The translations under genes were made by a program, and so were the position numbers. Below the pieces are notes generated by a model. That model saw only the letters and a program-made list of their open reading frames with translations. It had not been told where the DNA came from and did not search any database. 64,000 bases of DNA from Chrysophaeum taylorii (taxonomy: Eukaryota > Sar > Pelagophyceae > Pelagomonadales > Pelagomonadaceae): contig JAQMWT010000023.1 of NCBI GenBank assembly GCA_029834535.1, forward strand, positions 1 through 64,000, written 5' to 3'. Below, in pieces: positions 16-27,375 of the stretch (positions within the stretch are counted from its first letter, which is position 1; each line of letters starts with the position of its first letter).

Positions 16-563
16 TTACATTAGCGGCAATGTGCGGCGAAGAATCTCAGGTTGCTGGTGGTGGATGCGGTGCCAGCGAGTGACCAAAAGCTCTCTTTTA
101 GCGTGCTGAATGGTGCCGGGCTTGTGCAAGGGGGGGAGAGCGGCAGTCGAAGCGCTAGGGGGGCTGGGTCGCTTGTCAACTCGGACTCTAGCAACTGTTG
201 CCTCGGCGAGGAGCGTCTCGAGGTTTTTCGAGTTGCTTGGCTTGTGGATCGCATCATGGTGAGCATCTGCTACGGCATCGAAGAGGGAGATGAGGTTGAG
301 GTCCTCCGATGCTTAGAGACGGCTGGAGATGTTCAAGAAGAATTCTGCAACCTGAATGATGTCACCGGGGCTGGGGTTGCCATTGCGTATTGTTGCCCAT
401 TCGATGTGAAAGTTCACGTGGTGATGTGATTCGTGGAGTGCGAGGACAGCGCTGTACTTGGCCTGCAGCATGTTGTGCGGGACGGCGTTGGCCAGTGCCT
501 TAAACGCGAAGTACGGCGGGTGCTGTTGGAACAGGCGGAGCAGTTCCGGGTCCGAGTGGTGTC
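16..563 (-). pseudogene. Element R MTase, C-terminal end with motif X
   Basis: This is the last part of the element R C5-MTase. It continues in frame from 766-1561 once the solo LTR and one CGAAC copy are removed. Near 480-500 it encodes LANAVPHNML, which matches the GNAVPP-type motif X that packs against the cofactor site in C5-MTases. The frame reaches TAA at 313-315. It then stays open for about 98 more codons to a second stop at 16-18, so the first stop may be a nonsense mutation. Plus-strand ORFs here are shadows. Confidence 0.7.
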
Positions 564-568
564 CGAAC

Positions 569-760
569 TAGAGATAGAAATTTCCATTTAGGGTTAGGAA
601 CCCCCCTCCCCCCTTAACCACCTCACTTCACACCTACAACCACTAAATCGCTGTGTCGCACACCGTGCTGCTCTTAGTGTCGTTAGAGGACAGGACGAAA
701 GGCAGCACTACCACTGCCATCATTCTCTACCAGAGGCAGAGTGACTTTTACTGTTCTCTA
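569..760 (+). mobile_element. Solo LTR, element S/T family
   Basis: This 192-bp LTR starts TAGAGATAG and ends GTTCTCTA. It is closely similar to the LTRs at 4274-4459, 13216-13405 and 41926-42111. It is flanked on both sides by CGAAC (564-568 and 761-765), a perfect 5-bp TSD, and no internal sequence remains, so it is a solo LTR left by LTR-LTR recombination. It interrupts the element R MTase exactly where the protein reads EIAKF. Confidence 0.88.
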
Positions 761-765
761 CGAAC

Positions 766-1561
766 TTTGCGATTTCGTTGAGGGTCGCATAGCGGATGTG
801 GTCGGGAGAGATCAGCAGTCGTGCGTTGGAGTAGCTCGTGTTGGTTGGGTACGAGCCAGTGACCGAGTGGCACTTTGTGCTTTTCGGAAGCGTGTCGCCG
901 ATGAGGCCGATATAGTCCGCGTAAGTGGGACGTGCTTCGGACATTATGAGTCCCTTGGGGTCATCGAGCGTAATTCGCCCTCGTGAGTCGATCGCGGCTA
1001 AGTCGGGATGCGAGCGATTCCTGTAGTGAACCCAATTGGAGGGGCGCGAGCAGCTGTGAGCGGCTGCTAAGGAGGTGGTGTAGGCGACGACCAGAAAGGC
1101 GGTGCCCTTGGGAACATTCAGGGAGACGGCTTGCGTTGGGGAGAAGACTGCGGGTTGGTGGGAACAGTCCAATATCCGAAGGGGCCTGGAATGTAGGGTG
1201 AGGGAGGCGCGCTGGAAGTAGCCGCATGCGACGGCAGTAGCGACAGTGCCGGTGATGCCTCCGTCCAAATGGTAAGCACATTGGGACTCTGAGGCAGGAA
1301 AACAGCGGAGTGTGTTCCAAGCGGCGAGAGTTGGATGTTGCGACAAGTGGTTGTGGAGCAACGTGAATACCAGGAGATGGGAGATGTTGGTCATGGTAGT
1401 GTAGGGAGTGCCGTCTGCGTCTAGACCTATATCCGTGAAGGGCTTGTGGAAGCGTGCAAGCAGTTGGCAGATGCGCGCATTTTCGGAAATCGAGAGTTTA
1501 GGGGCGTTGGCGGGTTTGTAAGTAAAGGTGGCCTTGTGCTGGTAATAGTCCAACGTGGAGC
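766..1561 (-). pseudogene. Element R MTase, target-recognition and motif IX part
   Basis: A minus-strand open frame of about 265 codons lies between the LTR of element S (right) and the solo LTR (left). It ends with KCHSVTGSYPTN and IRYATLNEIAKF. These correspond in order to the motif IX region (a TxxY-type segment after the target-recognition domain) and the start of motif X in C5-MTases, where family members read LTPREAARLQGF or similar. It joins 16-563 in frame across the solo LTR. The join to 3786-4268 needs a one-base shift and meets a TGA. The identification rests mainly on continuity with the PCQ/ENV and NAVP pieces. Confidence 0.6.
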
Positions 1562-1566
1562 GGGTC

Positions 1567-1783
1567 TAGAGGTGGAAAATTTCATTTTCGCCATGACCCC
1601 CCCCCCACCACACCCCCTCGTCTCTCACTATCGCCAACCTACTACGTACTCGCTCAAGAAGCCCGTCACCGGACACTGTCAAGTGCTGTCCCTGCGTCGA
1701 AGGAGACAGGACGCACAGAGGACCAGCACTTCTACCACTGCGACAAGGACTCCGCCAAGGTGACAACAAATTTTCTGTCTCTA
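1567..1783 (+). repeat. 5' LTR of element S
   Basis: This 217-bp diverged LTR starts TAGAGGTGG and ends GTCTCTA. It aligns with the other LTRs here at the AAAATTTC start, the C-rich run, the segment around GGACAGGACG and the final ACTG..CTCTA. The internal sequence that follows, GTTTGGGCCC, is the same as that after the element T LTR at 4460. Confidence 0.7.
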
Positions 1784-1949
1784 GGTTTGGGCCCTTCTCA
1801 CAGTAGCGGAGTTCTTTAATCTCGCGTTACTCGGAGACAATCGCTAGTTCGACGTCCCGACCTCGACAGGCTATCGAAGTTCACTTCGACGCCACCCCCC
1901 CAACTCAAGTCAAGCCAAGATCCCAACCACGTCATCATCATCGCCCAAG

Positions 1950-3780
1950 ATGTCTCACGGCAACCAAGATATTCGACGAGAATTCGAACAACTTAAGCAA
2001 GATCACGCTCGCGATATCGATGACCTGAAGCAAGCTCACGCTCGAACTATCGACAAACTGAAGCACGATCACGCCACCCACGCAGACGCACTTCGGCAGC
2101 TGCAGAGCCAGCTCGCCAATCTTACCGGCGGAACCCCTCCTGCACCCGCTCCAGCGAGTACACCTTCACCCACCACCCCGGACCCCACCCCCAGCACGTT
2201 CCCAAGTTCGCCCAACGCTGCCGTCATGAAGGCCCTCGACCTCATGCAGATCTCCCACGACATGGTCCCTTACTTCATCATTCAGCTCTTTGCCGACCAC
2301 GTTAATGCCGAGACCGCCATCATCCAATACGCCACTCACCCGCTGTACACGTACGACTCCTTCGTGCGCGGTGACAACGCGTTCTCTGACGCTCTTATGG
2401 AACACTGCCTCACCCTCTACAAGCAGCACCCCGATCTCCACGAGACCGCCGGCAACACCACTCACAACTTCGAACCGAAGAGCTTCTACTTTCGCGGCGC
2501 CTACTACAAGTTCGGCCACGATTTCTACCACAACGTCTACCTTCCCAAGCACACCGAACTTACCAATGCTCTCAAGGACCCCCGCGACCCCTCACAAGGC
2601 CGCCTCTACCCGATCACCCTACCGTAACTAGTCGGCAAAGAACGAGAGTTTGTCACCTACCTCCGAACCGTCTTCCACCCAATGTTCCTCCGCTTCATCT
2701 ACATCCACTCCGCCATAGCCCCCCAACTCCCGTGTTACGACGAGATCAGCAAACTCGGACTCAAACACCCTATTGTGTCGAACTCATGCACCAAATTCGC
2801 CTTCTTCTCGAAACCCACCAAGGCCAACACTCATCTCTCCACGCTCATCAAGTCTTCAGTTACTTCCTCGACACCCCGTTTGACCCCACTCAACACGAAC
2901 CCCTCCATTACCTGCAATTCGCGCTGCACCTCCAAAAGCTCCTCCGTTAGATTTCCGACGACCCCAATCTGCAAATGACTGACGAGTACACCCTCAAGAT
3001 CGCCCACCAGATGTTCAGGTTCAAGTACCCCGAAGGAACTCCTCCCCAAGCACCGGGTCATGTTCAGGGCTTCGCGCAGCTCGCGCACTGTATCCGCTAT
3101 CGGACCTCGCCCCAGAACATAGAGGACGACCTCGCATGCCTTAACAATCACCATCGCTTCGTTGCCCGCGTTGCTATCATATCCGCTTACGGTCGCCCCT
3201 ACATCCCTCGCCTCAAACCCCCAGATTCCCTCACACTCGCGCCTCTTCGTCTCGTATCAGACTATGGCCGTTTTTGAAAGCAACACAGCCTCAACGTTAC
3301 CACCGATATTCCCTCCGACCCTTCCGTTCCTCCTGACCCCCCAGACAACCCAACCCTCGACATCTTTCTCAACACTCTCGATCCCCAACAAGACCAAGCG
3401 CTCATCGAACAGCTCCACGTTTACAAACAACGCTTCCGCAAGCCCCACCATCGCCCCCCCCCTCCCAAATCTCAATCCTACTACCAACCCCACGACTCTC
3501 CCCACGCCGCTCACCAACCTCGACCTCATCCCACTACAACAAACCAACCTCCCCCAACGTCGTTTCCCCCCCAAAGCCCGCCATCGAAGAGGACCGTTTC
3601 CAAGTTCCCCTCCCTATCGTTCGCCGCAAACTCCACGCTATTCGCAAACTCTCCGATGCCGCCATGACACAAATCCACGACCCCGACCAAATGTCTCGGA
3701 TCATGTCCACCATCTCTAACATAACCTCCGAAATTCTCCTCACCGCACACTCCGACCAAGACATCGCGAACCTCCTTCAA
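1950..3780 (+). pseudogene. Element S Gag-like protein
   Basis: ATG at 1950 opens a 225-codon frame. An N-terminal coiled coil has repeats of the type LKQDHARDIDD and LKHDHATHAD, followed by a proline-rich linker and a helical domain. The domain matches the element R Gag at residues such as DLHETAGNT, YYKFGHDFYHNVYLPK and GRLYPIT. The TAA at 2625 is followed in frame by similar protein. The C-terminal part continues in other frames: MTDEYTLKIAHQMFRFKYPEG from 2975, then QGFAQLAHC. The last recognisable residues, ISNITSEILLTAHSDQ, end at 3780. It is a structural retrotransposon protein, broken by several indels. Confidence 0.7.
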
Positions 3781-3785
3781 GGGTC

Positions 3786-4268
3786 ACTGTGCACGAAGAG
3801 CGGGGTGGGCGATCCAGAGATCGTCAGGGATAGTGTGACGGGGGTCCAGGAGAGGAGCCATGCTCGGGGGAGATGTTAACCAAGGAGAAGCGGTTTTCTC
3901 GAGGTTGTAATCGGTGAGCGGGTGTCGGGCATAGACAGCGAGGTAGCTGTTTTTGCTTATTACGTCACCAAAAGCGGAGGCATTGTAGACACCGGAGTGT
4001 CTGAAGTAACCGAAGCGCTGATAGGATTTGGCGAGTTTAGTGTACTCGTGATGAGCTCTGGGGTTGGGAGGTACGTTCTCGACAATGGCGTAGGTCGGGA
4101 GCGTGCAACGAACAAAGCGAATTTGTTCTGTGACGAAAAGGTCGGCGGTCACCGGAGTGGCATGGCCGTCGTGTTCTTTCATTACACTCAAATGTTGACA
4201 TGGCAGGGTGAAAACTGCAAAGTCAAAATGAGGTAGTCGTATTTTGCCGGTTTGCAGAGCGGCATTGA
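3786..4268 (-). pseudogene. Element R MTase, catalytic core (PCQ and ENV motifs)
   Basis: Reading in from the GCTTT junction, the minus strand encodes HFDFAVFTLPCQHLSVM. This is C5-MTase motif IV; the cysteine of PCQ (codons at 4195-4203) is the nucleophile that attacks cytosine C6. About 40 residues on comes YAIVENVPPNP, motif VI, whose ENV glutamate (4072-4080) contacts the base. Then YNASAFGDVISKNSYLAVYA aligns with motif VIII, although the usual QxRxR arginines are absent. The frame ends at TGA 3784-3786, at the element S junction. The order and spacing of motifs IV, VI and VIII make the C5-MTase call strong. Confidence 0.85.
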
Positions 4269-4273
4269 GCTTT

Positions 4274-4459
4274 TAGAGATAGAAAATTCCATTTAGGGTT
4301 AGGACCCCCCCCCCTTAACCTCACACTCACCACTACAACCCCAAAATCGCTGTGTCGTACACCGTGCTGCTCTTTGCGTCGCTAGAGGACAGGACGAAAG
4401 GCAGCACTACCACTGCCACCATTCTCTACCAGAGGCACAGTGATTTTTACTGTTATCTA
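4274..4459 (+). repeat. 5' LTR of element T
   Basis: A 186-bp LTR from TAGAGATAG to GTTATCTA. It differs from its partner at 13216-13405 by only a handful of substitutions and the length of the C run. The internal region begins GTTTGGGCCCAGTCCGG at 4460. Confidence 0.88.
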
Positions 4460-4679
4460 GGTTTGGGCCCAGTCCGGTACTGGTAGAGAAGCGTCCTCCG
4501 AAAGACATCGATCTCGATCGACGTTTCGGACAAAGGCCCAGGATTTCCAGGCAAGAGCAATCTCCTGAAGTTCCTGGAAGTCTAAAGACCGTAGTCAAGT
4601 CTCATCGCTAGCTATGGGTGAAAAAGTGTGAAAAAGTGTGAAAGGCAACCAACAACGCGCAAAACGCAACCCAAAAACG

Positions 4680-7646
4680 ATGGCGACTCACGACCCACAA
4701 GTCCCGAGTCTGGAAGTAGCGAAGCAATTCGCTACACGACAAGCTCTCATTCAACAGTTCCAAGCCGATGTCTTTGCTCAGTTCGCCGCTGATTGCCAAC
4801 GGCACAAAGCTAATTTCTTGGATCAAAACGCCGCTGATCAAGCTATTCTCAAAGCCAGAATCGCCGCTGATTACGCTGATCTCAGAGCCAAAATCACTGT
4901 AATCGAAGCTCAAGATGAGCAACTCGATCAAGACGTGCAACTCGATCAAGACGAGCAACTTGAACAAGCTCCCCAACCAGCTGTTCTTCCGGCAACTCCT
5001 CTTAAGCACAAGCAAACTTCTCACGAAGTCGCGACCTAAGACCCGATCATCTCGGTGGTCACCCCCCCTCATGCCGACAACCACACCGGATGTCCAACAT
5101 CCCACGGCAAAGTCTCAGACCCCACTGCCTTCCCTCCGGACCCAGGCATAGCCAAGGTTACTCCCCAACCTGGCACACCCCACATTCACGAGGACACTCC
5201 ACCTTGTTCGAATATCGCACCAGCAATGTTGAACACACCACCACCAATAAACCTTACTCCCTTCACTCCGCCAACCCCACCGGAGCCTCCACCTCATTCC
5301 CTGGAGCCTAACTCCCCACTATCGGCGACTCCCGCTACACCACCTATACAACTTGTAGTTCCCCAACATCCTCGTCAACCCCCTCGCCGCACCACTCATC
5401 TCCTTGATGAACATGCCATATACGGCCATGACGGCCCCGGCACCTTCATCCCTGACCAAGCCCCCACCGCGGCTCAAGCTCATGCCGCCCCGCTGTCGGA
5501 TTCCCTTGTCCGATATCCATCATCTTCCGCAAGTCACTCTCCTCAGGACTTTCCTCTCCATCCACAAGACCATGCCACCTACGGCCACGACGGCCCCGGC
5601 ACTTCCATTACTACCACAGCTCCTTCCGCGGCTCAAGTTCCTGCCGCCCAACCATCGGACCCTCCTGACAGACCTTCCTCACCTTTCGAAAGTCGCTGTT
5701 CCCCCGATTTGCCCCTCCACCCGCGTGAATATGCATTCCACGTCTACGACCATTCCTCCGTCCCCACTCAAGCAACCACCCACCTCCTTTCTCCAAGTTC
5801 CAATGCACCTCTGTCTGCGCTCCACCGCGAGTTGGCCGCCACTACGGCTGCATTCCGCTCCCAAGCCGCTGAATTGGCCGCAACCAAGCCCATGCTCATT
5901 CGCAAGGATGACGCATTGTCCTCCACAGCCAACAAACTCACCACCACCGACGCCGCCCTGGCTTTCGCCACTGCCCAGCTCGCCATCCAAGCCGACGAAC
6001 TGGTCTCCTCCCAAGCCGAACTCCATCTCACCCACACCCAGCTCAAGGCACTCGAAACTGCCCACGCTGACATCCGCAGCTCCCACCTTGAAACCAACGC
6101 CGCCCTCCAAACCACTCTTACCTCATTGGATGCCACCCACCTCACCCTAGATGCTGCATCGCATCTTTCACCTCCTTTCCCCATCCACAACCAACCTTCA
6201 TCCCCTTCCGAACCATCCTCCAATGCCTCTCCCCCGATTCTCTCCGAGTATCATCACCACCTCCACAGATGCCCCGGACCTGGTTCTCCTGGTTCACCAC
6301 CCCCTCCGTCTCTCTGTTCTCACCCCCCCGCCATCTCTGGGCCCTCCTCCTCTACCCACTCACTCTTCGCCTCTTTGGCACCCCCTGAACCCCTTTGCAC
6401 CCGCTCGCCTTATAAGCTACCTGGTTCATTCCAACTCGACCATATCCCCGCGTCCGAGTTGCGAGGGCGCACATTCAACACCGGCGACCGTACCCCTACC
6501 ACCAGCGACGATCTCCGCGAGCAAAGTCCCACCAAGAATCAAGACCACCCACATCAAGAGTCGACAAATTCCGAATTATCAAAAGACAGCTCTTTGCCTG
6601 ATGGTCATGCTCACCATCATGCTGCCAAGACATGCATAAGGGCTTCTTCTCTCTTCGAGCACAACGGCCCAGGAAGCAATCTTGTCGAATAGACACCAAG
6701 CCATCTCGTTCCCACTTTCGACAAGTCAAAGAACAAGACACCTCGAGATGTTCCCGAGTATTACGCCTACATCGACTATGGCAACCACACCCAAGAATCT
6801 AAGGCTCCGCCGTATTCCATGCACCGGGCACAAGAGCCGCAGGCCACTGACAACATCCCCCCTGATTCAGTCCCCTGGTATGATGCATACAGCGAAGTAG
6901 CAAGACCCACTTCACAAGTCTCGAAGATGGTCTCCTCGACCATTCCAGATCAGCCGCCTGATCCAAGCGCCACCAATGACCCCGCAATACCGAATCCACA
7001 AGGACAGGACACGCTGTCAACGGTCCCACGGTCAACATACTCGCAGGCACTCACCGCACCTGCAGGTATCAGCTCAGATTCACTCCCGCCTTATTCGATA
7101 TCTCGATCAGCAGCTCCCGATCACTTCGAAGCTGGTTCCGCCTCGCCGCATCCCCTCCTCGAAGACAGGCGCGCACTGCCGCTCACCGGCGCTTGCTGCT
7201 GCACCCACCATCCACCTTCTCGGTTGGATGCACTGGATGACACTGCTCAGCAGGTTGCATGGACCCATCTGCGACCACCGTGTAACGATTTGATGGATGT
7301 CTGCGCACGAGCACCAGTCGCAACACCTGATCACCCGCTCCCCAACTCTCAGTCAGAGGACGCACTCCTTTTTACTGCCGATCCTTATGTCTCACCGTTA
7401 CCAAGCCTCAGGAAAGTTTCCCCCATGGCTGCAGTAACAGGCTCAGATTTCGAGAGTTATGAACGACCCGATCAGCCGCAAACTATGCACGATTCCATTG
7501 CGTCCACTTCGGTCCTGTATGTCCCCTTGCATAGCTCTCTTCTGGACGCCACACGCTTGCGCTGCCTCCGGAAAATCGACGTTGCGCTCTCAGGAAACAT
7601 TCTCGACGCACTGCACAGACTCGCTCCAACTGACCCACTCCTGTAA
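4680..7646 (+). pseudogene. Element T long ORF, Gag-like N-terminus with proline-rich tail
   Basis: One reading frame runs from ATG 4680 (start of MATHDPQVPSLEV) to 7646, with only two stops: TAA at 5037-5039 and TAG at 6688-6690. The first 120 residues are helical, with QALIQQFQADVFAQF and repeated QLDQD units. The rest is rich in Pro, Ser, Thr and His, and repeats YGHDGPGT (near 5420 and 5580) and HNGPG (near 6660). NGPGT also directly precedes the protease of element R, which suggests a decayed Gag-protease junction. No enzyme domain is seen. The strand is G-poor, which favours chance open frames, but the shared frame across two stops argues for a once-functional protein. Confidence 0.5.
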
Positions 7647-8556
7647 GCATTTTTGCATCACTGGAATGCACGACAAACGTTCCACGCCAGCTGCCGGCTC
7701 CACCACAAACATGCACCCAAGTCACGTACGTTGCCTCCCTCAAAAGCGTCTTATCGCTCAGCACGTCACTCCTCATTTGAGGACGCATGTCACATGCCCG
7801 CACCTTCGAATGCTCTACACGCCTAAGGGCAACTCTGGTCACTACGGCACTCACTGCTCTGGTCCCAGCATCTCCGCTATTGAGGATGCACTCTGCAGGA
7901 CTGACCCTTACATTGCCCTTTGTTCTACTGCACTCTCCTTCGGCGACCCCTCTTTTCGAATTCCCGCACTGGACCCCAAGCATTTCAGGCCGGATACTCT
8001 CCACCATGGGAGCTCAGCTCACGCGCCCATCTGCCCTACCTCGCAGACAGGTCAGCCGCGAGCCACACTCCTTTTGGCACTGATTTCGGACCACCCGCAT
8101 CACGCGCTTTTGCTCTTGGAGCACGACACGCTTTTCGATGCTCTCCGCGTCACTGCCTCTAACACCACGCCACTCGTCATTTCCACCGACACTCCGCGCC
8201 ACAACGTATCTCACGATAAGTCGCTCGCGCCCGCACCACGTCGCGCACGCCTTACGAGTTTCAATTGGTGACCTCGCAGGTCTTTCGATGCATTTTCCGA
8301 CGTCCGACTTTGAACTTACGAGTTACTTTATGGCAATCCCCAATGCCAAGACGTCTGAAGCTGCGCAATCATGTCTCTGGAACTCCAAAGCCACAGAAAC
8401 TGCCAGACAAGAGAGCACTCAGCTATCAACAGCAGCTCAACCGCTACTTAAAGTCTCGCACACAGCAAACAGTACTCTATCGCAGTCTCTATTGGACGAC
8501 AAGACGAAAGATAAGACCACAACGGCCAGCTACACCAGCCAGCTCATAAATGTAGC

Positions 8557-8951
8557 TAACTAACTAACTTCAGACCTCTCCCGAGCATGGGGGCCAGGCC
8601 GGACAGGCAGGAGCCGATCCGGAATCACAGAGGAAAATCACGCACTTGGGGCAGAGGCGAGGGACGAGGACTCGTTGATGACGGACCGCCACTGCGCGCG
8701 GTCTTGTGCGAAGTCGTGCAAAAGTGTCGAAGGCCGCAAACGTGTTGGTCCACGAACAATCGACCTGTCCGTCGCGTTCTGCCCAACCGAGCGAACCCCA
8801 TCCCAGCGCGGACTTTCCGGGTGCTAACCGGCCAGCCCGGGAGGCGAGCAGGCACCGTCTCACTCCGGGACGGCCGGGGCCGCCGCAGGGAGCAAGCGTG
8901 GTAGGCGCCGTCCTCCATCGCAACCAACGGTTAGCGATCTCAGGGTTAATT
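8557..8951 (-). mobile_element. SINE-like element sharing the LINE 3' end
   Basis: This 395-bp minus-strand insertion ends in GTTA repeats (TAACTAAC on the plus strand) and is flanked by AATGTAGC (8549-8556 and 8952-8959). Its 3' part, including the last codons of the LINE ORF, matches the LINE at 16871-19715. Its 5' part (GCGATGGAGGACGG) matches the 5' parts of the elements at 46720 and 60997. It has no coding capacity. Confidence 0.8.
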
Positions 8952-10339
8952 AATGTAGCAGACGAGACAACGCAAACCAACTGCACAGCACGCTTCCAGA
9001 CTATGCAGACGATGCTCAGGTCCAACGCTCAATTACTCGACCACGCAAACGTTCTGTCACCTGACCTTGCACTGCTACTGGCTCCTGTCTCATTCATAAC
9101 TGATGCACCCCATCCGATGGACAATCCTTAAGATATGTCCCGCTCGCAGAAGCACCACCACAGGACACAAAGGTACATCATGAAGACTCAGGTAAGCGCA
9201 CCACGATCATGCGCACAAGCTCATTGCGCCTATCCAATCACGACGAGACGAAGCTACAGCTTTGCTTGACCCCTTCGCCTCTGGAAGACAAAGGCCGCCT
9301 CTCAGCCCCCCAGGCACCTGACCCTTCCCTGTCGCTGCAATCCGCATTAGCACAGACGATCTCGCCTCCCTGCACGACTGCAGATAAGGCACAAGGCAAT
9401 TTCAGCACCCTGCAGAGCTATGCGCACCCGCTGGAATCTCACCAGCACGGCTACCTCAACCAGTCAGGTCACCGCACCACCTCGGTCTCCCCTGACACCA
9501 GGTCGACGTATCGCTCATTCGCGACCACCTCAAGTCATCTAATGGGCGACTATGATCTCGAGCATGAAATCATCGCAACGCTTGAGTCATACCCAAGAAG
9601 GGATCCTACTTTGGAGTCACCTTTACCACGCCCACAAGAACTTTGGCCACCAGACGCCACCCATGTGCTCGTGGTTTCTCCATTGGTTTCCTCCAAAGCA
9701 TTTGACTGCAGCAGAGACAAAATGAAACCTCCCCATGCGACTATAACCGCATTCTCGTTTGGGACACAAGCATTTACTTCATGTCATTTGTCTACGCCCA
9801 TAGTACCGCGACACACGGCAACCAAGATAGAAGTGGACTGCGCTCCACCCTCATCTCTGTGCGCCACCTCCGACGTGCTGCTCCCGGCACTACTAGCCAG
9901 TCCCATCACGTCTGATTCAGCTCCCATCGCTTTGTATGACGTCGTATGTCATATTCCGATTAAAGCCCAGACACCGCACAGGCTACAATGCACTCGCGAC
10001 AGCACGCTCACCGCCCCTCTCGGTTTAGACTACAAACATTGCACCATACCCATGGTACACTCACAGTCAACTGAGACGCACGCTCGCTTGTCGCACAGTA
10101 CGATGCCCAAACACCTTTCGATTCATGATACGCAGAACACTGTCGTCTCAGCCACCGCTGAAGCGCCTCCTCCGACCGCCACCCGGCTCCGCGCTCGTTT
10201 CGCAATCATGGTCTCTCGGTCTCACCGGCAATTCGAAGATTTCACCCAGTTCGAATTACGATGGCGCATTAATTTTCCACCGACGACAAGATTCGTTTAT
10301 ATTCGTATCAGTCATGCCTCCCATGGCTACTCTGGCTAC

Positions 10340-10921
10340 TAACTAACTAACTAACTTCGGACCTCTCCCGGGCATGGGAGCCAGGCTGGGCCGGCAGGAG
10401 CCGGTCCAGGATCACAGAGCAAAATCACACAGTTGGGGTAGAGGCGAGGGATGAAAAGGCGTTGATGGCGGACCGCCACTGCGCGCGGTCTTGTGCGAGG
10501 TCGTGCCACGAGTTGAAGGGGATGTCGCATTTCCGGAGTGCCCTGGCGAGCGTCCTCCCGTACGTCACCTGCGGAGCCCCCAGTGGGCGCTTGGAGCGGA
10601 CCCAAGACGAGAGCATCTTGCGAGGGAGTCGGGAGAAGGGCATGCGGGCGACGTGACCGGCCCAGCGGAGCTGGCGGCGCGTGACGTAGACGTCGATGGA
10701 CTCGAGACCGAGGCGCCGCAGCAGGATCTCCGTTGAGATGAGGTGGAGCCAGGTGTGCTTCCGGGTCACACGACACATGACGCGGGCGCACTGCGCGTGG
10801 AAACACCGCAGCCGGCGGAACAGGACCTCGGTGAGGCACCACGATTCCGCACCGTGAAGGAGGATGGCCAGGACGAGCGAGACATAGACGAGGCGCTTGG
10901 CGCGAGCAGAGACGGACTTTG
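10340..10921 (-). mobile_element. 5'-truncated RTE-like LINE fragment
   Basis: A minus-strand LINE 3' end of 582 bp with a TAAC-repeat tail, flanked by TGGCTAC (10333-10339 and 10922-10928). It encodes the C-terminal RT region, including LRWAGHVARMPFSRLPRK and NSWHDLAQDRAQWRSAI, nearly the same as the copy at 16960-17450. Confidence 0.85.
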
Positions 10922-13215
10922 TGGCTACATCGGAACACAATTCAAGGCACGTACCGAAGTCCCTCTTTCTAAGGACCTCCGTCACACGCCAAGACCTGAT
11001 GAGTATTCGTCGTTCCTCCCCGCTTCAACGGGACTCCCGACGACCAAATCCCCGACGATTCGTGATGACACCAAGCTCCGTCATCAATGCAATTCAGAGC
11101 CACCCACGCTCCTTCATTAATCTCTCGCGGGTCACACCTCTCAAGTTTCAGCATTCCACCCTCGCTCGATTTTATCCAGCATGCTGCCATATGCAAACGA
11201 AGTTCAGTCACGCCAACGCCACACTTCGCAGTTATCGCTAGTCTCGCGCAATAAATGCCCGCCACCGAATGATAGCCGCACGCAAAGTCCTTTCTTTACT
11301 CATCTCTTTTCACGTCCCTCCCAGCACTATGCTTGACGTCGAAGCTCTGCACCACTGTGGTTCGGTTACAACACAACTTCACGCGAAATCCTCGTCCAGT
11401 TCTGATCATATCTCGCATCTGTCGACATTGTTATCGGAATCATGCTTCGGACACAGCTCAGACTGCACTAGCGTATTACGCTCCTATGACGCACTCGGTT
11501 CGCTCCTCTCCGTTCGCACTGCAGGTTCCATCTTGCAGAACTCTGAGCCCAACAGCTGCCATTGCGATTCGCACCCAGCCGACGCTTTCCGTAGCACCCG
11601 CGAGGATAACCCCCAATCTCCACAGGTTGGACACACGCTCTGCTCTAAGCATCCCACCGAATCTCACTGCCGCGCACCGCTATCCCCACCCAGTTGTGCT
11701 ACGAATCAATGGAAGTTAACTGCCATGCCTACCTACTTCTTCATTCCCACACACTCGCTGCTAACCACAGTCTCGCATGACTCATTGCCGGACAGTTCTC
11801 GCATTATGGACATGACCTCACATCATGTTCATTCTTCGGACATCCCCCGTCCACAGACTAATCCTCTCTTGCAACATACGCTCCCTACACGTTGTAAACT
11901 GTACAGCTCTCGCATATCGACAACACCCTCCTGTCGAATGTCTCCCCATTCAGTCACTGCACGATTCACCAGGGATGCACCACGCTCCCTCGCGCTTGTA
12001 CATCGAGGGAAGTTCGATTCTGGTGAAAACGCTTCGTTTGATTCTGATGTCAACGACTCCGGACATGAAATGAATAGATCAGTCGATCGTCACAGTTCAG
12101 GATTACTTTATCGAACAGAACACAAAAGATGCGACTTTGACCATATCTTCGAAGTCAACTCTCCCCCTGGCACGGACGCTATCTTCAAGCAGTCCATCGC
12201 CTTCAGGCATTTTCTTCTGTTGCCCAACTCTTCTGCATTTTCTGCACAGGGCACCGACTCGTCAGCACAGGACACACACCTGTATCCACCATCATACGCG
12301 ATACACTCGCAAACCTCCGTCTCCGCCCAATCATCTTTCGATGATAGCCACCGGCGACTTACACGAGATTACGAACCCCAACCTACAGCACATTTAGAGT
12401 TTTCATATTCATGGCCAACCCCAGACAACTTTATAACGATATCAACATCGCACTACGATTACACCCATACCATTTTAGACGCTCATAGCCTAGCTTCAGC
12501 TGTCCCACGCTACACTCAGGACGACAGCTTTGACACGTATGTGACAGGCAATTCTGGTTCTCTCATCTTCCAGAAACAGCTCCGCCTTACTCGCTCTCAT
12601 TACGACGATTACCTTACCATGTCGAAGCCGATTTGGTTAAATGGTCATATCTCTTCATGGGATCACGCTGGCGCTCCGTCACATCGTCAAATCTTTACTA
12701 GCCTAACTTTAGCCACAATAGAATCTCATCCCTACGGCCACTCTCATTATTCGCCTTTCGATCAAACATTGGTCTGCTGCACAATTCCCGACTGCCTGGC
12801 CCATGATCCCTCCTGTTATTATTCGCTAGACCCCCCGCTCTACTCAGATGCTCCCCCAACCACTTAGGATTTATCCACCGGTACGCACCTTCCCCTATCT
12901 CATTGGCCACTGAGCAAGATGATGATCTGATCTCTCGCACAACATTCGCCATACTTCATCGTTAGCCTACTTAGCATCTTCATCCACTTTTCTTCTTACT
13001 CACGGTCGATGCTTTTTCCTTTCTTTTATCATCCGCTCTTTATCCTTTCTCACTTCACACACTACCTGCGTTTCGTTTTCCTCTATCTCCTTCATGCACT
13101 TCGCACACTTTCCTTCAACGCCTCCTCACGACTCGACATCCATTTGTCCTTGGCTGGAGATTTGCTTTGTTTGTCCCATATTTCGCTCATCACCGAGTTC
13201 AATCTGCGAGGGCGT

Positions 13216-13405
13216 AGAGATAGAAAATTCCACATAGGGTTAGGAAATCCCCCCCCCCCTTTAACCTCACACTCACCACTACAACCCCAAAATCGCTGCG
13301 TCGTACACCGTGCTGCTCTTTGTGTCGTTAGAGGACAGGACGAAAGGCAGCACTACCACTGCCACCATTCTCTACCAGAGGCACAGTGATTTTTACTGTT
13401 ATCTA
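13216..13405 (+). repeat. 3' LTR of element T
   Basis: A 190-bp LTR, TAGAGATAG to GTTATCTA. It is followed directly by the TSD copy GCTTT (13406-13410) and then by the element R MTase on the minus strand. The minus-strand frame that appears to run on into it (NSKNHCASGREWWQW) is an artefact of the insertion. Confidence 0.88.
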
Positions 13406-13410
13406 GCTTT

Positions 13411-14540
13411 CTTAGATCCGCATAATGCTGAGCGTGAGGGAAGAGTTGTTGCGCGCGGGCGCGCATAATAGGGTGAATTTCACAGGCGACCACGACAGTA
13501 ATACGTTTGTCGAAGCGTTTGCGAAAAGAGGCGAAGCCTTCTTGGTGGATTCCACCTGCAATAATGGCTGTTTTTAGCGGAGGGGGTTGTGCTTGCACAG
13601 CGAGGTCCGCCGAGCCAGTGAATGCATATTGGGCGACAGTATGCGGGAGGCTAATGAGATCCGACAGAAATATTGAATGATGCTGTAACTTTGCGAAATC
13701 TAACATGTGGGATTGCGAGCGTGTCTTTGCGACATGCTGCGTGATGTGTGCGAGCTTATCCTTGAGTGACATTCGCGTTCCGGTGTGAAAACTAAGCACA
13801 GCGCGGAATGTTTGCTTCGGACGGGATGGCAGGGACAACAGGCCATTATTTTGGCGATTGGCGAGAACTACTGCTGTTTTACCTAGAAGCGCCTTATAAT
13901 TGTGGGGATCTGCGGTCGACGTGCTCATAAGCTCGTAGAGGTATGGTTCGTGTGGCAATGGCGGGTCGGTTGCTTGTACGTTCAGAGCTTTGAGCAGAGA
14001 TGTCGCTATAACCTGTAGACCTTTTCTGAATCGCGGGACGACCAGAAAGACGAGATATAAAACGTAACCTGTTGATTCTTTTATATCATTTGAGGAGAGA
14101 CCTGCGGCCTGCAAATACAACGGTATGACACCGACGAATTGGCTGGCTAAGGTGCCTCTTCCCATACGTATGGTGTGTTCGGGAATCCGTCGTATGGACT
14201 CGGGAACAAAGTGTTGAATTGTGCGAGTGAAGCAAAATGATGCGCCACCGTCAATTAAAGAAGTTTCAGTGCCGGGTCCATTGCATCCGTGCAGCGAGTT
14301 GGTCTTCTTGGATGTCTTTGCTGGAGTGTAAGTGGCACAAAGAAAATCCGCGACTCTGGGTGAGATTGTTGATGAGGTCGGGAAAGTCGTCATAGTGAGG
14401 ATAAGTGCCTGATTGAGCAAGATGTGGTTGGCGGCACCGGCGTCGTCGGCAACCATCAGCGAAAAAGCTGACTCTGGTGTAGAGCACGCATGTAGTCGCT
14501 GTGACGTGTGCGTAGTCTTCGGCGGAGTCATCTTCATCAT
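13411..14540 (-). pseudogene. Element R protease and MTase N-terminus (motif I)
   Basis: The minus-strand frame first encodes an aspartic-protease-like segment. NGPGTETSLIDGGASFCF has a D-G-G-A-S active site (14239-14253) instead of the usual D-[ST]-G-A. About 200 residues later comes TAIIAGGIHQEGFASF (about 13530-13575), which aligns with C5-MTase motif I (FSGIGGxxxGF). VVACEIHPIMRARAQQLFPH follows and matches motifs II-III, where an acidic residue binds the cofactor ribose. The frame ends at ADLRK, where element T inserted. Upstream it must be joined by frameshift to the acidic frame around 14266-14760. Confidence 0.75.
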
Positions 14541-15815
14541 CGATTTCGGGGATGGTGTCGTCGTAGAGGCCTAGCTGTCCGTGGTCATCATAGAAACCGA
14601 GGTGGCCTTGGTCATCTTTTTCGTCGGCTTCGCCCTCATCAGGTGGATCATCCTGAGGATCGGACGATAGCACCGGAAGAAACTCCGCGGCATCGCAATC
14701 GGCTTCGGAGAGAAGTATCTCATCGGAGATAGTGGTGATGAGGTTGATTAGATTGTTCATGCGCTCGGAGCTGGACGTATGTTGGCGACCGGCTTGGCTC
14801 AGGTTCCGTATGGTTTGGAGCTTGCGACGAACTTCACGAAGGGGGACCTTGAATCGTTGGTCAGGAGTAGATGGCTTTGGTGGATGCGGTTGAGTGGGAA
14901 AGGTGACCTTGCGAAGGTGCGGGTGCTCGCGTTTGTCTGGGGTGACAGTAGAAGCACGGGGGGGGTGCTTGTTCTTCGTTGGGTGACAGGGGGAGCCTTG
15001 GGCTTAGGGCTGTCATTGATGTCATAGTACGACGGGGAGCGAGGATTGGGAGGCTTTTTAGGTGGAGGCTTCTTGGGGTGGCGCGTGAGCTGCTTCTTTC
15101 TATAGGCGTAAAGATGTTGGATGAGATCACTGTCGTCATCTTGATCGAGGTTGGCTTCCGTGAGAAAGACGGCAACAGGGTCGGTGTTTTCGTTGGAGGC
15201 TTCATTGGGATCCGGTGGGATGTCATCTTCAGAGGGGGTGTCTTCTTCTTCTTCGGTGAAGTGGAGACCATAACGACGGGAGCGGAAACGTGGATTATCC
15301 TTGTCCTTGGTCGGTAGACGACCAAAGTCAGTGACGAATCGCAACGGCTTGAAGTTCAGGGTAGGATGAGGCTTAAGGTGAGCCCAAAAGTTGCGCTCGA
15401 AGGTGGAGATAACCATGATGCGGGCGATCAACTTGGGAAGATTGTTAATAGCTTCTTTGTCTTCGTCGAGTAATAGCGAGTCGTTTGGCGTACGCAGACA
15501 GTTGGCAAGACGCGCGAAGCCCTTGATATGCGTTGGGGCGCGGGAGTCAAGCAAGCTTTGGGGTACTTGAAGCGGAGAATTTGGTGGATTTCCTCGAGGA
15601 TCTTGTCGTCGGGAATTGGAGAGAGGCATCGTTGGTGATTTGGCGGAGTTGCTGCTGGACATGGCGCATATAATCGATATAGTGCGCAGGCTCGTGAATC
15701 TGTGGGTTGAACGGCGTGTCCAGGAAAGCATTTTAAACACAATGCGCATGGTGGACGTGGTTCTGGCCCGTGTGCTTGTAAAGTGCGAGGCGAACTTGGA
15801 GCACAAATTCGAGTC
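14541..15815 (-). pseudogene. Element R Gag C-terminal region and acidic linker
   Basis: Several minus-strand frames together give a protein collinear with the element S Gag. ILRFKYPKA and THIKGFARLANCL match the element S segment after 2975. LKPHPTLNFKPLRFVTDFGR matches its LKPPDSLTLAPLRLVSDYGR. MNNLINLITTISDEILL at 14760 matches the last residues of element S. An acidic run (SSDPQDDPPDEGEADEKDD, IPEIDDEDD) leads to the protease. At least three indels separate the pieces. Confidence 0.65.
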
Positions 15816-16625
15816 CTATCGGATGGGAAGATCCGAGTGCATCGATTTCGTCGTATGCTGGATGCTTGACGGAGTCGCTACCGGCATGTAGGAAACGGCG
15901 AAATAGGGGGTGTATCGCGGAGGTATGAAGTCGGCTTCTTTTCCTTGGAGGTGATGTTGTGTGATCGGATACAACTTCCCTTTCGTCGTATCCGTCGTGT
16001 CCTTGTCTTGGTCTTTAACTTCTTGGAGCTTAGGCTCGTAGACGTTCTCCAATAAGTGTTTACCGAACTTCCGGTAGACACCTTTGTAGTGGACATAACG
16101 GCCTTGGAAATCTTTCGTGTTCCCTGCTGTAGCGTGGTGGTCGGGGTCCTTGATGCAGTGGCTGAGAAGAGCGCCGGCGAGATCATTAGATCCGCGCAAC
16201 ACGGATTCCCACGTGTAGAAGCCCTGAAAAAAATATTGCGTTATGCCTGTTTGCATCAGATGTTCGACGAACAACTGCACAACGCGAAACGAAAGCATGT
16301 GGGGTGTGACTTGTGCGGAGTCCATTGACTTGAGGACGGCGCTAGGTGGGTCACTAGAGGTGTTAGCCTTGGTCTTGGGGCCTTGTTGAGCTGGAGTGGG
16401 GGGTGGAGCCGCAGCAGCGATGGCAGGTGATGGTGCTCCTTGCGTAGCTTGCATTTGTCTCAGCATATCGCGAAGGTCTGGAATGTCTTGTTTTTGTGCT
16501 GCCATCTCCCTTTGATGCCGAGCTTCGTACGCTTGAGCTTGTTGTTGCATGTCTCTTTGGTACTTTGCTTCTAAGCGAGCTTCTTGTTCTTTTATCTCCT
16601 TTTGGATTTCTTGATTGGTTGGCAT
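15816..16625 (-). pseudogene. Element R Gag N-terminal region
   Basis: The likely start is ATG at 16625 (MPTNQEIQKEIKEQEARL); the open frame extends further upstream into the leader. A coiled coil of about 75 residues, with repeated QREM and QRDMQ units, is followed by a Pro/Ala linker and a helical domain with HHATAGNTKDFQGRYVHYKG and KFGKHLLENVYEPK. This domain is shared with the element S Gag. It is a retrotransposon structural protein, here frameshifted at its C-terminal end. Confidence 0.7.
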
Positions 16626-16710: not shown

Positions 16711-16870
16711 TAGAGAATAGTAATTTCAACTGTGTTGCCATTCAGCAGAGCGAGAGCAGTGGTAGTCTGCCCTCGTATCTGTCTCCTAAAACGAGGACAG
16801 GCGGTGTGAATAACACAGCGTTTTTCTTAAATCAAAAGGTGCTAAAGTTAAGGGAACTAACCCGAGGATA
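16711..16870 (-). repeat. Element R 5' LTR, main part
   Basis: Minus-strand LTR sequence ending CTATTCTCTA at 16711, followed by the leader GTATTGGGCACCAG. On the plus strand it is cut at 16870 by the LINE. The first 37 bp of the LTR lie on the other side, at 19724-19760. Confidence 0.75.
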
Positions 16871-16959
16871 ACTAACTAACTAACTAACTTCGGACCTCTC
16901 CCGAGCATGGGAGCCAGGCTGGGCCGGTAGTAGCCGGTCCAGGATCACAGAGCAAAAAA

Positions 16960-18363
16960 TCACACAGTTGGGGTAGAAGCTTGGGAAAGTGCATGGATGG
17001 CGGACCGCCACTGCGCGCGGTCTTGTGCGAGGTCGTGCCACGAGTTGAAGGGGATGTCGCATTTCCGGAGTGCCTTGGCGAGCGACCTCCCGTACGTCAT
17101 CTGCGGAGCCCCCGGTGGGCGCTTGGAGCGGACCCAAGACGAGAGCATCTTGCGAGGGAGTCGGGAGAAGGGCATGCGGGCGACGTGACCGGCCCAGCGG
17201 AGCTGGCGGCGCGTGACGTAGACGTCGATGGACTCGATGCCGAGGCGCCGCCGCAGGATCTTCGTTGAGATGTGGTGGGACCAGGTGTGTTTCCGGGTCA
17301 CACGACACATGACGCGGGCGCACTGCGCGTGGAAACACCGCAGCCGGCGGAACAGGACCTCGGTGAGGCACCACGATTCCGCACCGTGAAGGAGGATGGC
17401 CAGGACGAGCGAGACATAGACGAGGCGCTTGGCGCGAGCAGAGACGGACTTCGAGGCGAAGATGCAGTCCCGCAAGGCACCGAAGGCCTGAGACGCCTTC
17501 TTGATCCGCGCGTCGACGTCTGAGTCGTCGCGGCAGTCGCGCGAGAGGACCGAGCCGAGGTACTTAAACTGGTCGACGACCGGTATGAAGCAGCCGCGCC
17601 CGAGCTCGATGTCCGAGAGGTTCGTGTCGTCGAACGACTTTGGGTCGCCGTACAGGTGTGCCGGGCGAGCGACGAACAGCATCTCCGTTTTGGACGCCGC
17701 TTTCGTGTGTCGGTTGCCGCAATGCACCTCCATGCCCCAGGCGTCGCAGTGTTCGATGAGGCGCGGTGTCTCGTTGGCGGCGATGTGGCGGTCCCAGAAG
17801 AGAAAGGCAACGTCGTCGGCGTACGCCGATTCATCGAAGGGAAACTCGTCGCCGCGAGCGGACCAACTCCGGTTTGTCATCTGAAAGTCTTTCCGCGTAC
17901 GGTAGACACATGGGGTGCGGCCATGGCGTCGTCGAAACGACGTCGTCAGTGCCGCCATGAACAGCACGAACAGGACGGGGCCCAGGACGTCGCCCTGCTT
18001 GACGCCGATGATCGAGTCAACCGAGGCGACGACGCCGCTGACCGAGAAGTGGACCTGGATTCGGTGGAGGCCCTTGATGGCTGCGACGAGCTTCGGCGGG
18101 ACGCCGAACTTCAGGAGCACCTCCCAGAGAAGCTCTCGCGGGACGCGGTCGAACGCCTTAACGAAATCGATGAACAGTACCCACGAGTCCTGACCGTGCT
18201 CACGCCGCTTCTTCAGCGCTAGCTTGAGCGAGAAGGTGGCGTCGGACGTACCGCGCTCGGGTCGAAAGCCACATTGAGACTCGTGATCGAGGGCCTCGCA
18301 GATGACGTTGAGTCGCGCACGGACGATGTTCGAAACGATCTTCTGCGCGACCTCGAGCATCAT
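16960..18363 (-). pseudogene. LINE reverse transcriptase (RT core and C-terminal region)
   Basis: A 467-codon frame covers most of the RT of an RTE-like LINE. Visible motifs include VLFIDFVKAFDRVPRELLWE (palm aspartate), GVKQGDVLGPVLFVLF, and YADDVAFLFWD, where YADD is the catalytic site. The C-terminal region carries RRQLRWAGHVARMPFSRLPR. It is out of frame with the upstream endonuclease part because of the 40-bp duplication at 18383-18462. The enzyme copies LINE RNA at a nicked target. This copy looks intact in its RT core but could not be made as one protein. Confidence 0.85.
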
Positions 18364-18382
18364 GATCCCGCGGTAGTTGCCC

Positions 18383-18462
18383 GGCAGGGAGAGGTCCCCC
18401 TTCTTGGGGAGAATCCCGAGGAGGCAGGGAGAGGTCCCCCTTCTTGGGGAGAATCCCGAGGA
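18383..18462. repeat. Exact 40-bp tandem duplication inside the LINE
   Basis: Two adjacent identical 40-bp units, 18383-18422 and 18423-18462, each beginning GGCAGGGAGAGG. Since 40 is not a multiple of three, the duplication puts the endonuclease side and RT side of the ORF in different frames. Confidence 0.95.
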
Positions 18463-19713
18463 GGCCTACGTCCCACTCGGCCGGCTGGACTTCAGACTCC
18501 CAGAACTCGAGGACTACACGCTCCAACAGCGGGAGCGTGCGAGCGTCGGTGGCGAGCGCCTTCCAGGCCTCCGCGCGCAGGCCCGATTCGCCGGGCGCGG
18601 TGCAGTTCAGCTGACCAACGGCCCGTTTTATCGCCTCCTGCGTCGGTGGTTCCCCGAGTTCCGGACGGATCGGCAACTGGTCAACGTCGTTGATCACGGT
18701 GGGGTCGTAGCGAGCTTGTCGACTGTAGAGCTGCTTGAAGTGCGCCTTGAACACGTCGGCGTTCTCCTGTGGCGACGAGCACCTGCTACCGTCGGCCTTC
18801 GTCATCTGCACCTGCCTAGCCAATGTGGTCTTCGTGAGACCGCGTCGGAGCCGTTCGACCGTATTCCAGTATTTCGAAGTGCCGCCGAGCGACTCGCTTC
18901 CCGCGTTGAGTCCGGCACACAGACGAGCAATCCATCGCTCTTTCGCCCGTGCTACGGCCTTCGCGAGCCGCGACTTGATCGCCCGAAGGTCGTCGAGGAT
19001 CGTGGACGCCGAGCGAAGACGGCGCCGGGCACCGAGCGAGAGCACAAACGCGTGGAGGGAGTTGCGTCGCTCGATCAGAGGCTGGAGTTCTTCCGCCGCG
19101 TCCTCAAACCATCCGGGTCGGAGGCGTCGGGTCTTCGGCAGTAAGGCGTCAGAGGCCGAGGCCGCCGCCCGCGCAAGGCGGGAGTACGGCGAGGACGGCG
19201 AGCTCTGGTCGGCGTCGGCCTGGTCGGCGTCGGGTATCTCGTCCGTGGCGTCGGTCGGTGCGTCGTCGGTCGCGTTGTCATGTGACCCACGGCCCAAGCC
19301 GAAGATGTCGAGCACTCTCGAGCACCACCGGCGCCGGAATCCGAAGCGCGTGCTTTCTGAGCGCAGGGGAGCGTAGTCAAGGCGCGCCAAAGAGGGCCGT
19401 GTGTCAGGAGGCCGTGCGAGGCGGACTTTGACGCGCAGGATGCACTTGAGAGCGCGGTGGTCCGAGTCCACGAGGCTGCTGGTCAAACCCACATCAGCGA
19501 ACCGGTGCACGTCGCGCCGCCGTGAGATCATGTGATCGAGCTGGTACGTTTTCCAGGAGCGCGGGTGCAGCCACGACGCGTAGGCGCGCTTGCGGAAGAA
19601 CGTGCCGACCGACGCCAGACGCCGTGTTGCGAGGAACGTGTGGAGACGGCGGCCAGCGTTGTTGACGTAAGGCGCCCCGTAGGGCCCACAGGGGCCGTCG
19701 ACGACGTACTTGG
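18463..19713 (-). pseudogene. LINE endonuclease C-terminus and RT N-terminal region
   Basis: Minus-strand frame starting inside an APE-type endonuclease. GRRLHTFLATRRLASVGTFF is followed by YQLDHMISRRR and SSLVDSDHRALKCIL, where the SDH triad motif of exonuclease III-like nucleases is visible. A linker follows, then the RT N-terminal region with TSKYWNTVERLR, PQENADVFKAHF and LLGILPKKGD. The N-terminal half of the endonuclease was never copied. The apparent upstream extension of this frame is element R LTR sequence. Confidence 0.8.
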
Positions 19714-19723
19714 AGCGAGGATA

Positions 19724-19760
19724 GGGGGGTACTAACCCTAATTCAAATTTTATATCTCTA
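19724..19760 (-). repeat. Element R 5' LTR, first 37 bp
   Basis: Read on the minus strand this begins TAGAGATATAAAATTTG and continues TTAGGGTTAGTACCCCCC. It matches the first bases of the other LTRs (TAGAGATAGAAAATTCC). It is separated from the rest by the LINE. Confidence 0.75.
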
Positions 19761-19790
19761 GTTTTGTGCCCGGGGGGGAGTCTGCGAACT

Positions 19791-19816
19791 CCCAGCACGA
19801 AAGTTTCGTGCTAGGG
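19791..19816. repeat. Short perfect palindrome in a G/C-run context
   Basis: Arms AGCACGAAA and TTTCGTGCT lie one base apart, extended by CCC and GGG. GTGT follows the G run. A related hairpin occurs at 20432-20462. Confidence 0.7.
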
Positions 19817-25494: not shown

Positions 25495-25513
25495 AGCACA
25501 AACGCACAGGGGT

Positions 25514-27284: not shown

Positions 27285-27375
27285 GATAAACGATAACGAA
27301 CCGAACACGTAGCAATGAACTGAAGCCGAGGAGGTGTCGCCACGAAGTCAAGCACAGGATCGATGGAACGAACGA

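Follow-up and report, generated by a model that had tools for sequence, protein, structure and literature searches.

A putative C5 cytosine methyltransferase in the Pol polyprotein of a Copia-type retrotransposon relic from the alga Chrysophaeum taylorii

Organization of the locus

The window considered here, that is, the whole stretch of DNA that was analysed, comprises positions 1–64,000 of contig JAQMWT010000023.1 (C23) of the pelagophyte Chrysophaeum taylorii and begins at the first base of that contig; the genome amounts to 70.8 Mb in 697 contigs. Its minus strand harbours the relic of a long terminal repeat (LTR) retrotransposon, whose pol gene is split by insertions at 4274–13405, 1567–3780 and 569–760 and appears to encode a C5 cytosine methyltransferase. 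An original prediction, made from the letters of this stretch, had proposed that an enzyme of this kind, borne by a retrotransposon, lies here in four fragments with a Gag and a protease upstream of it. This proposal is borne out by a Pfam match to C5 methylases (PF00145) and by the pol frame of a related copy on contig C96: when that frame is compared with the window by tblastn, four colinear pieces are recovered at 79–87% identity which adjoin one another at the insertion borders; gag and a protease-like motif lie upstream of the methyltransferase. The borders coincide with those predicted, and all three pol insertions are flanked by perfect 5-bp target-site duplications (GCTTT, GGGTC and CGAAC, read from the flanks). 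The parts of the relic are given below in the 5′ to 3′ order of the element.

19718–19760, minus strand: outer 42 bp of the 5′ LTR (blastn of the C96 and C681 5′ LTRs, 86%)
16871–19717, borders approximate, minus strand: insertion within the 5′ LTR, LINE-type by eye, seen as a gap in the LTR match
about 16711–16870, minus strand: remainder of the 5′ LTR (blastn with the C96 and C681 LTRs; 16711 extrapolated from the 208-bp C96 LTR)
14509–16067, minus strand: gag (tblastn of C96 gag, pieces 55% and 83% identical)
13401–14495, minus strand: start of pol, with the protease-like segment and methyltransferase motifs I–III (tblastn, C96 Pol residues 1–365, 79%)
4274–13405, no strand assigned: 9.1-kb LTR insertion in pol, 5-bp duplication GCTTT
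3781–4272, minus strand: methyltransferase core with PCQ, ENV and motif VIII (PF00145; C96 Pol residues 363–526, 87%)
1567–3780, plus strand: 2.2-kb insertion starting TAGAGGTGG, duplication GGGTC, with gag-like stretches 33–49% identical to C96 gag
750–1562, minus strand: middle region of the methyltransferase (position of the recognition domain) and motif IX (C96 Pol residues 527–797, 86%)
569–760, no strand assigned: solo LTR, duplication CGAAC, related to the LTRs of the 9.1-kb insertion (81–93% over common repeats)
28–567, minus strand: methyltransferase motif X and the next pol segment (C96 Pol residues 793–972, 87%)

The element is longer than the span of 16–14540 first assigned to it, as gag matches reach 16067 and the 5′ LTR extends to 19760. 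A protease-like D-G-G-A-S motif lies at 14238–14252. Straight read-through of the gag stretch encounters five stops, and, as the contig starts at base 1, the integrase and reverse transcriptase part of this copy is missing. With stops in gag, a pol cut three times, a 5′ LTR cut once and the integrase–reverse transcriptase part beyond the contig start, the window copy is a relic.

The methyltransferase of the window copy

The pieces of the domain were searched separately with the inserts left in place, and ten frames of the window were tried in Pfam. The unjoined 162-amino-acid piece at 3784–4272 matches PF00145, the C5 cytosine methylase model, at 6.5e-9 (36.1 bits, cut-off 22). This match is significant for the piece alone, and the PCQ and ENV signatures singled out in the prediction fall within the matched methyltransferase core. 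The other nine frames gave no methylase in Pfam, and none of their few matches (UPF0515 and coiled-coil models, e.g. FBF1 at 3.5e-4) reached its cut-off. The same piece matches TIGR00675 at 1.1e-5, under that model's own cut-off, and two PHROG DNA methyltransferase profiles, phrog_363 (7.8e-4) and phrog_116 (2.2e-3). Motif I of C5 methyltransferases is usually F-x-G-x-G-G, and motif IV of DNMT3 is PCN. Motifs I–IV, VI and VIII–X are present in order in the window copy.

13551–13571, minus strand: motif I, TAIIAGG
13473–13487, minus strand: motif II, ACEIH
13404–13424, minus strand: motif III, YADLRKL
4192–4206, minus strand: motif IV, LPCQH, with the catalytic PCQ
4066–4083, minus strand: motif VI, VENVPP, with ENV
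3964–3984, minus strand: motif VIII, NASAFGD
762–797, minus strand: motif IX, IRYATLNEIAKF
475–495, minus strand: motif X, LANAVPH

The order predicted for the motifs thus stands, and so do their positions save that of motif IX, which had been placed slightly off at 800–880. In the relatives L026, L066 and L067 the ordered motif pattern, which was widened after the sequences had been seen, was matched by none of 20,000 shuffles each.

Intact copies and element anatomy

The 162-residue piece has at least 151 matches in the genome (537 first-look candidates, 150 scored), some copies giving two. Intact paralogues had been named as the place to look, and the C96 copy carries methyltransferase, integrase and reverse transcriptase in one open pol frame. 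Its gag frame spans 61399–63132 and overlaps, in a different frame, the pol frame of 1952 amino acids at 63096–68951, which continues at 68955–69842 after one stop. The part of this pol contained in L010 matches, in order, PF00145 (9.2e-8), the integrase model rve (0.0056, under cut-off; residues 714–808) and the Copia-type reverse transcriptase model RVT_2 (1.2e-38; residues 1384–1631). In Ty1/Copia elements RVT_2 follows integrase, and this order is found here within one pol, with a weak rve match. Other copies display the same order of gag, protease-like motif, C5 methyltransferase, integrase and reverse transcriptase.

Four copies were fetched in full. Their LTR pairs are about 200 bp long, start with TAGAGA, end with TCTCTA and are 89.4, 97.5, 94.2 and 95.5% identical, divergences that suggest copies of different ages. 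All four have direct LTRs and a 5-bp target duplication, within the 4–6 bp expected of Ty1/Copia elements (CTCAC in C96, GTATA in C681, GAATT in C446 and TCTCC in C523, from the flanks). Among 49 loci of this family, hereafter family 1, PCQ is present in 44 and ENV in 37; some loci represent the same copy twice, and the misses include truncated or shifted loci.

Sister families and Copia elements without the domain

Two further families, the second represented by C483 (L062, L063) and the third by C560 (L068), were found while Copia elements without the domain were being sought. For family 2, the scored matches number at least 150 (792 candidates); upstream of integrase it carries LLC[SA]G..TPAF, VE[SG]D, SPCT, EM.PP, CGD[YF]Q followed by RW, RIRHYSTRELARANNF and NAIP. 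The full QxRxR of motif VIII is present in four of five copies, L065 differing; motifs IX–X were read in C483, L066 and L067, motif X being absent from the L065 frame and the L064 frame ending earlier. Family 3 displays PPCTNRN, AEMTPP, CGDYQSRERW, LRYPTRPEL and NALP, together with a canonical QxRxR, and its assignment to Copia is based on a reverse transcriptase match about 2.5 kb downstream of the domain.

The sole PHROG match of both families is phrog_116, 'DNA methyltransferase', at 4.3e-4 and 1.2e-3 for family 2 (two of three frames) and 0.02 for family 3 (one of two frames). Direct alignment of families 1 and 2 extends over about 500 residues and places motifs IV–X opposite each other; the z scores for two family-2 proteins are 6.6 and 7.2 (0 of 500 shuffles each), whereas the control alignment of gag with family 2 gave a z score of 1.1 (76 of 500 shuffles). 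As a second Copia family has a homologous domain and a third a like one, the likely history is one old capture in a Copia ancestor, followed by divergence.

The window also contains an ordinary Copia element. Its pol part (23584–25512) matches RVT_2 at 5.3e-26 and gag_pre-integrs at 3.1e-6, the latter just under cut-off, and its gag part (25344–27347) has a weak zinc knuckle. No Pfam methylase is found in either part, and the stretch from knuckle to integrase is too short for such a domain; the two kinds of element therefore probably exist side by side. At 49604–50668 lies a Copia-type element in which, judged by eye, no methyltransferase domain was found.

Beyond this genome, scans of viruses and of prokaryote genomes with two short peptide patterns each gave 38 and 69 stretches, none of which was confirmed by tblastn as a relative of the enzyme, and plasmids gave none. 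Among phages, two records, both under one virus name, are 26% identical and named DNA methyltransferase. PDB searches gave an unrelated best match at 0.15 for a single frame and nothing relevant for the family-2 profile (best 0.12); the best match of the family-1 profile was 8yf3, a cytosine-specific methyltransferase, at a non-significant 0.069.

Selection on the domain and its middle region

For motifs I–VIII, the median pairwise ratio of nonsynonymous to synonymous substitution (dN/dS) was 0.19 (11 copies; 50 of 55 pairs below 0.5); the middle region, which separates motif VIII from motif IX, had a median of 0.27 (26 copies) and motifs IX–X one of 0.15 (28 copies). These medians derive from the 30 best of 115 matches, rows with stops or below 75% identity to L026 being dropped, and picking the best matches biases the set towards intact copies. 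For the four full copies, where one of 30 comparisons was not computable, the ranges are 0.08–0.13 for motifs I–VIII, 0.08–0.19 for motifs IX–X, 0.23–0.42 for the middle region, 0.11–0.23 for reverse transcriptase and 0.05–0.11 for integrase. The methyltransferase motif regions thus appear to be constrained about as strongly as reverse transcriptase. Alignment A3 comprised nine of the 15 rows of A2, with L027, L029, L036, L042, L044 and L046 left out.

The middle region has no Pfam match in 19 members and no PDB match, and a single-sequence structure model of window positions 750–1562 reached a predicted local distance difference test (pLDDT) score of 31. A candidate reading as a TET/JBP-like 2-oxoglutarate and Fe(II)-dependent dioxygenase, based on an H-x-D, a G-x-F and a distal H seen by eye in both families, was rejected as far as an active oxygenase is concerned: in the diverged copy L056, the His positions of the putative metal triad are occupied by Q and N. 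A genome search with PF20515 gave no match, which proves little as the controls gave none either, and one with PF12851 gave a single weak match elsewhere in the genome: this Tet_JBP hit at C548:84498–84761 scores 20.6 bits against a cut-off of 34.9, lies in a 509-amino-acid frame and may mark a host TET/JBP-like oxygenase.

Host methyltransferases and traces of methylation

A six-frame PF00145 search of the genome, in which introns were ignored and 123 of 474 first-look candidates were scored, listed 57 matches, all over cut-off. Fifty-five overlap element matches; the other two are host DNMT2 and host DNMT5. The former (C634:8824–9801, L018) matches PDB 1g55 at 3.9e-39, and a light-harvesting-protein-like frame, identified by eye, adjoins it. 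The latter (C621:16962–17498, L019) matches PDB 7r76 at 3e-143, an entry named 'DNA repair protein Rad8' which we take to be Cryptococcus Dnmt5. DNMT5 is a maintenance-type methyltransferase. No host DNMT1 or DNMT3 was seen in this search, which could miss split genes. A red-lineage plastid rbcL–rbcS–CbbX cluster (rbcL and CbbX named by eye) is present in the genome and presumably points to an ochrophyte host. PMC9998398 records DNMT5a in pelagophytes, diatoms and others.

The ratio of observed to expected CpG is 1.01–1.04 in three whole element copies, with TpG and CpA at 1.13–1.14; five other stretches, measured outside these elements, have CpG ratios of 1.17–1.46 and TpG and CpA below 1, and the window pieces themselves have a CpG ratio of 1.17. 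The lower values of the whole copies weakly favour methylation, but coding bias could also explain them.

Other features of the window

The LTRs of the 9.1-kb insertion lie at 4274–4459 (186 bp) and 13215–13405 (191 bp) and are 94.8% identical. They have short end sequences in common with the LTR of the methyltransferase element. The insertion contains large plus-strand frames, four of which were tried in Pfam and gave no match up to E 0.1. Two stretches within it, 8553–8719 and 10340–10506, repeat each other (87%), and a third copy was seen by eye from 16889 onward; apparently they represent the 3′ terminus of the LINE-type element by which the 5′ LTR was also interrupted. Positions 16870–16889 form an (AACT)n tract, and the open reading frames 16963–18465 and 18203–19810 extend into the insertion at 16871–19717. 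The 2.2-kb insertion has an LTR-like start, yet no second LTR is detectable at 3780.

Interpretation and rival explanations

Our preferred reading, to which we assign a probability of about 0.7, is that the relic belongs to a Ty1/Copia element which encodes a C5 cytosine methyltransferase in Pol, between the protease-like segment and integrase, and that this enzyme would methylate the element's own complementary DNA (cDNA). The sequences show that the domain has its motifs in order, shares one pol frame with an integrase and a Copia reverse transcriptase, is present in many copies and is under selection. Its position in Pol suggests delivery together with reverse transcriptase and integrase, so that the natural substrate would be the element's own cDNA or the DNA of the insertion site. 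The methyltransferase would be released from Pol, would accompany these two enzymes and would methylate the double-stranded cDNA, either ahead of integration or during it. DNMT5, the one host methyltransferase of DNA type that was found, could afterwards maintain such new marks as cells divide. The element might benefit through shielding of its cDNA, through choice or shaping of insertion sites, or by tempering its own expression. A more far-reaching version is put forward tentatively and seems rather doubtful: a Copia clade comprising three or more families and hundreds of matches would have inherited its methyltransferase from one ancient capture and would be the main source of new 5-methylcytosine, so that parasites would write the marks which the host copies by DNMT5.

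A number of observations weigh against the preferred reading. The motif I loop is shorter than usual, and motif VIII of family-1 relatives reads ISKTR, without the customary Q and first R. Families 2 and 3 have EMT or EMR in place of ENV. No Pfam methylase match was obtained for these two families in the frames tried, and none in NCBIfam for family 2; the expectation that standard annotation would miss the gene accordingly holds for them and fails for family 1, in which one piece alone and other copies pass the Pfam cut-off. Comparison of shallow profiles by hhalign is not significant for families 1 and 2 (0.071, gag control 0.11), nor for family 2 against DNMT2 (0.11) or DNMT5 (0.8); family 1, which Pfam recognizes, likewise fails against DNMT2 (0.23), which indicates that the test is insensitive. 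The protease is represented by the motif LIDGGASFCFT only, its C96 counterpart having no Pfam match, and the middle region is under weaker constraint than reverse transcriptase. Between copies, C/T change amounts to 6.8% at CpG versus 7.2% at CpH (H being A, C or T), G/A change to 8.4% at CpG versus 5.4% elsewhere and C/A change to 3.4% versus 4.6%, a mixture that reveals no consistent CpG decay.

The shortened motif I, the altered motif VIII of family 1, the substitutions for ENV and the PCT which families 2 and 3 have for PCQ, and the lack of consistent CpG decay would suit a protein that has the C5 methyltransferase fold by descent, is catalytically dead or weak, and is kept for binding DNA or RNA in packaging or target choice. 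This alternative is nevertheless unlikely: every frame read of family 2 (five) and of family 3 (one) retains the PC-motif Cys and the Glu at the ENV position, PCQ persists in most family-1 loci, the canonical QxRxR is retained in nearly all family-2 copies and in the family-3 copy, and motifs I–VIII have the low dN/dS reported above for the four full copies. Less probable again is an enzyme that methylates RNA, be it the element's genome or its tRNA primer, in the manner of DNMT2. The want of consistent CpG decay would agree with it, and RNA methylation has been raised for LINE-borne enzymes in PMC5890265; the matched library profiles and the phage match are named DNA methyltransferases and the enzyme sits in Pol beside integrase, neither point being decisive. 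Finally, a host or bacterial methyltransferase gene, or a retrocopy, might simply adjoin a retrotransposon. Nothing but the fragmentary state of the window copy speaks for this highly improbable arrangement, which the uninterrupted 1952-residue C96 frame with integrase and reverse transcriptase refutes; the abundance of matches in the genome and the existence of host DNMT2 and DNMT5 as separate genes also oppose it.

The Copia element bears on a wider puzzle: retrotransposons are the usual targets of cytosine methylation, by which cells ordinarily silence them, and here elements keep a methyltransferase of their own under selection. The puzzle was posed in 2018 for LINE, DIRS and Gypsy elements (PMC5890265). 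A Copia clade with direct LTRs, present in many copies within a 71-Mb genome, would be a further capture and evidence that such a trait can persist and succeed. As the host apparently has DNMT5 and, within the limits of the six-frame search, neither DNMT1 nor DNMT3, it is a system in which one may examine whether de novo methylation can come from mobile elements.

Comparison with known elements

No description of a Copia element with a C5 methyltransferase was found in the literature searched, which lay outside subscription papers and preprints and was partly available as excerpts. As far as this search reaches, three points are new: the Copia host, an enzyme for which no close relative was found, and an ochrophyte-like alga in which DNMT5 is the sole host enzyme of DNA type to have been found. 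The original prediction invoked dinoflagellate and charophyte precedents; the element class here is another, Copia, and the alga has a red-lineage, ochrophyte-like plastid gene cluster. According to PMC12344493, 'LTR Copia and DIRS families' include DNMT3 members, a statement for which the 2018 paper is cited; this wording may be a slip, as section 9 of that paper (PMC5890265) describes Gypsy. Section 5 of PMC12344493 describes no ochrophyte Copia element, and the eukaryotic orphan DNMTs treated there fall, as the enzyme reported here appears to do, outside the named families.

PMC5890265 reports DNA methyltransferases in LINE, DIRS and Gypsy elements, proposes cDNA methylation for the DIRS-borne enzymes and shows de novo CG methylation by retrotransposon DNMTs. 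It also mentions DIRS-type elements with a Dam-like methyltransferase, which is likewise encoded by a retroelement but is an adenine enzyme and structurally unrelated. SymbioDIRS-Dnmt3 and SymbioLINE-Dnmt of Symbiodinium resemble the present case in that many DNMT-bearing retrotransposon copies occur in an alga and are under purifying selection; furthermore, the SymbioLINE enzyme is an orphan lineage, just as no close relative was found for the enzyme here (PMC5890265). The Symbiodinium elements differ in their LINE or DIRS (tyrosine recombinase) machinery, and the Copia elements of that alga are described without DNMT in the same paper. KnitGypsy-Dnmt3 of Klebsormidium nitens is, like the element described here, an LTR element with a DNMT in the Pol polyprotein and purifying selection on it. 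Its enzyme is related to DNMT3, whereas the domain described here has PCQ or PCT at motif IV; and it combines Gypsy domains with a DIRS-like repeat structure, in contrast to the Copia domains and direct LTRs of the Chrysophaeum element (PMC5890265).

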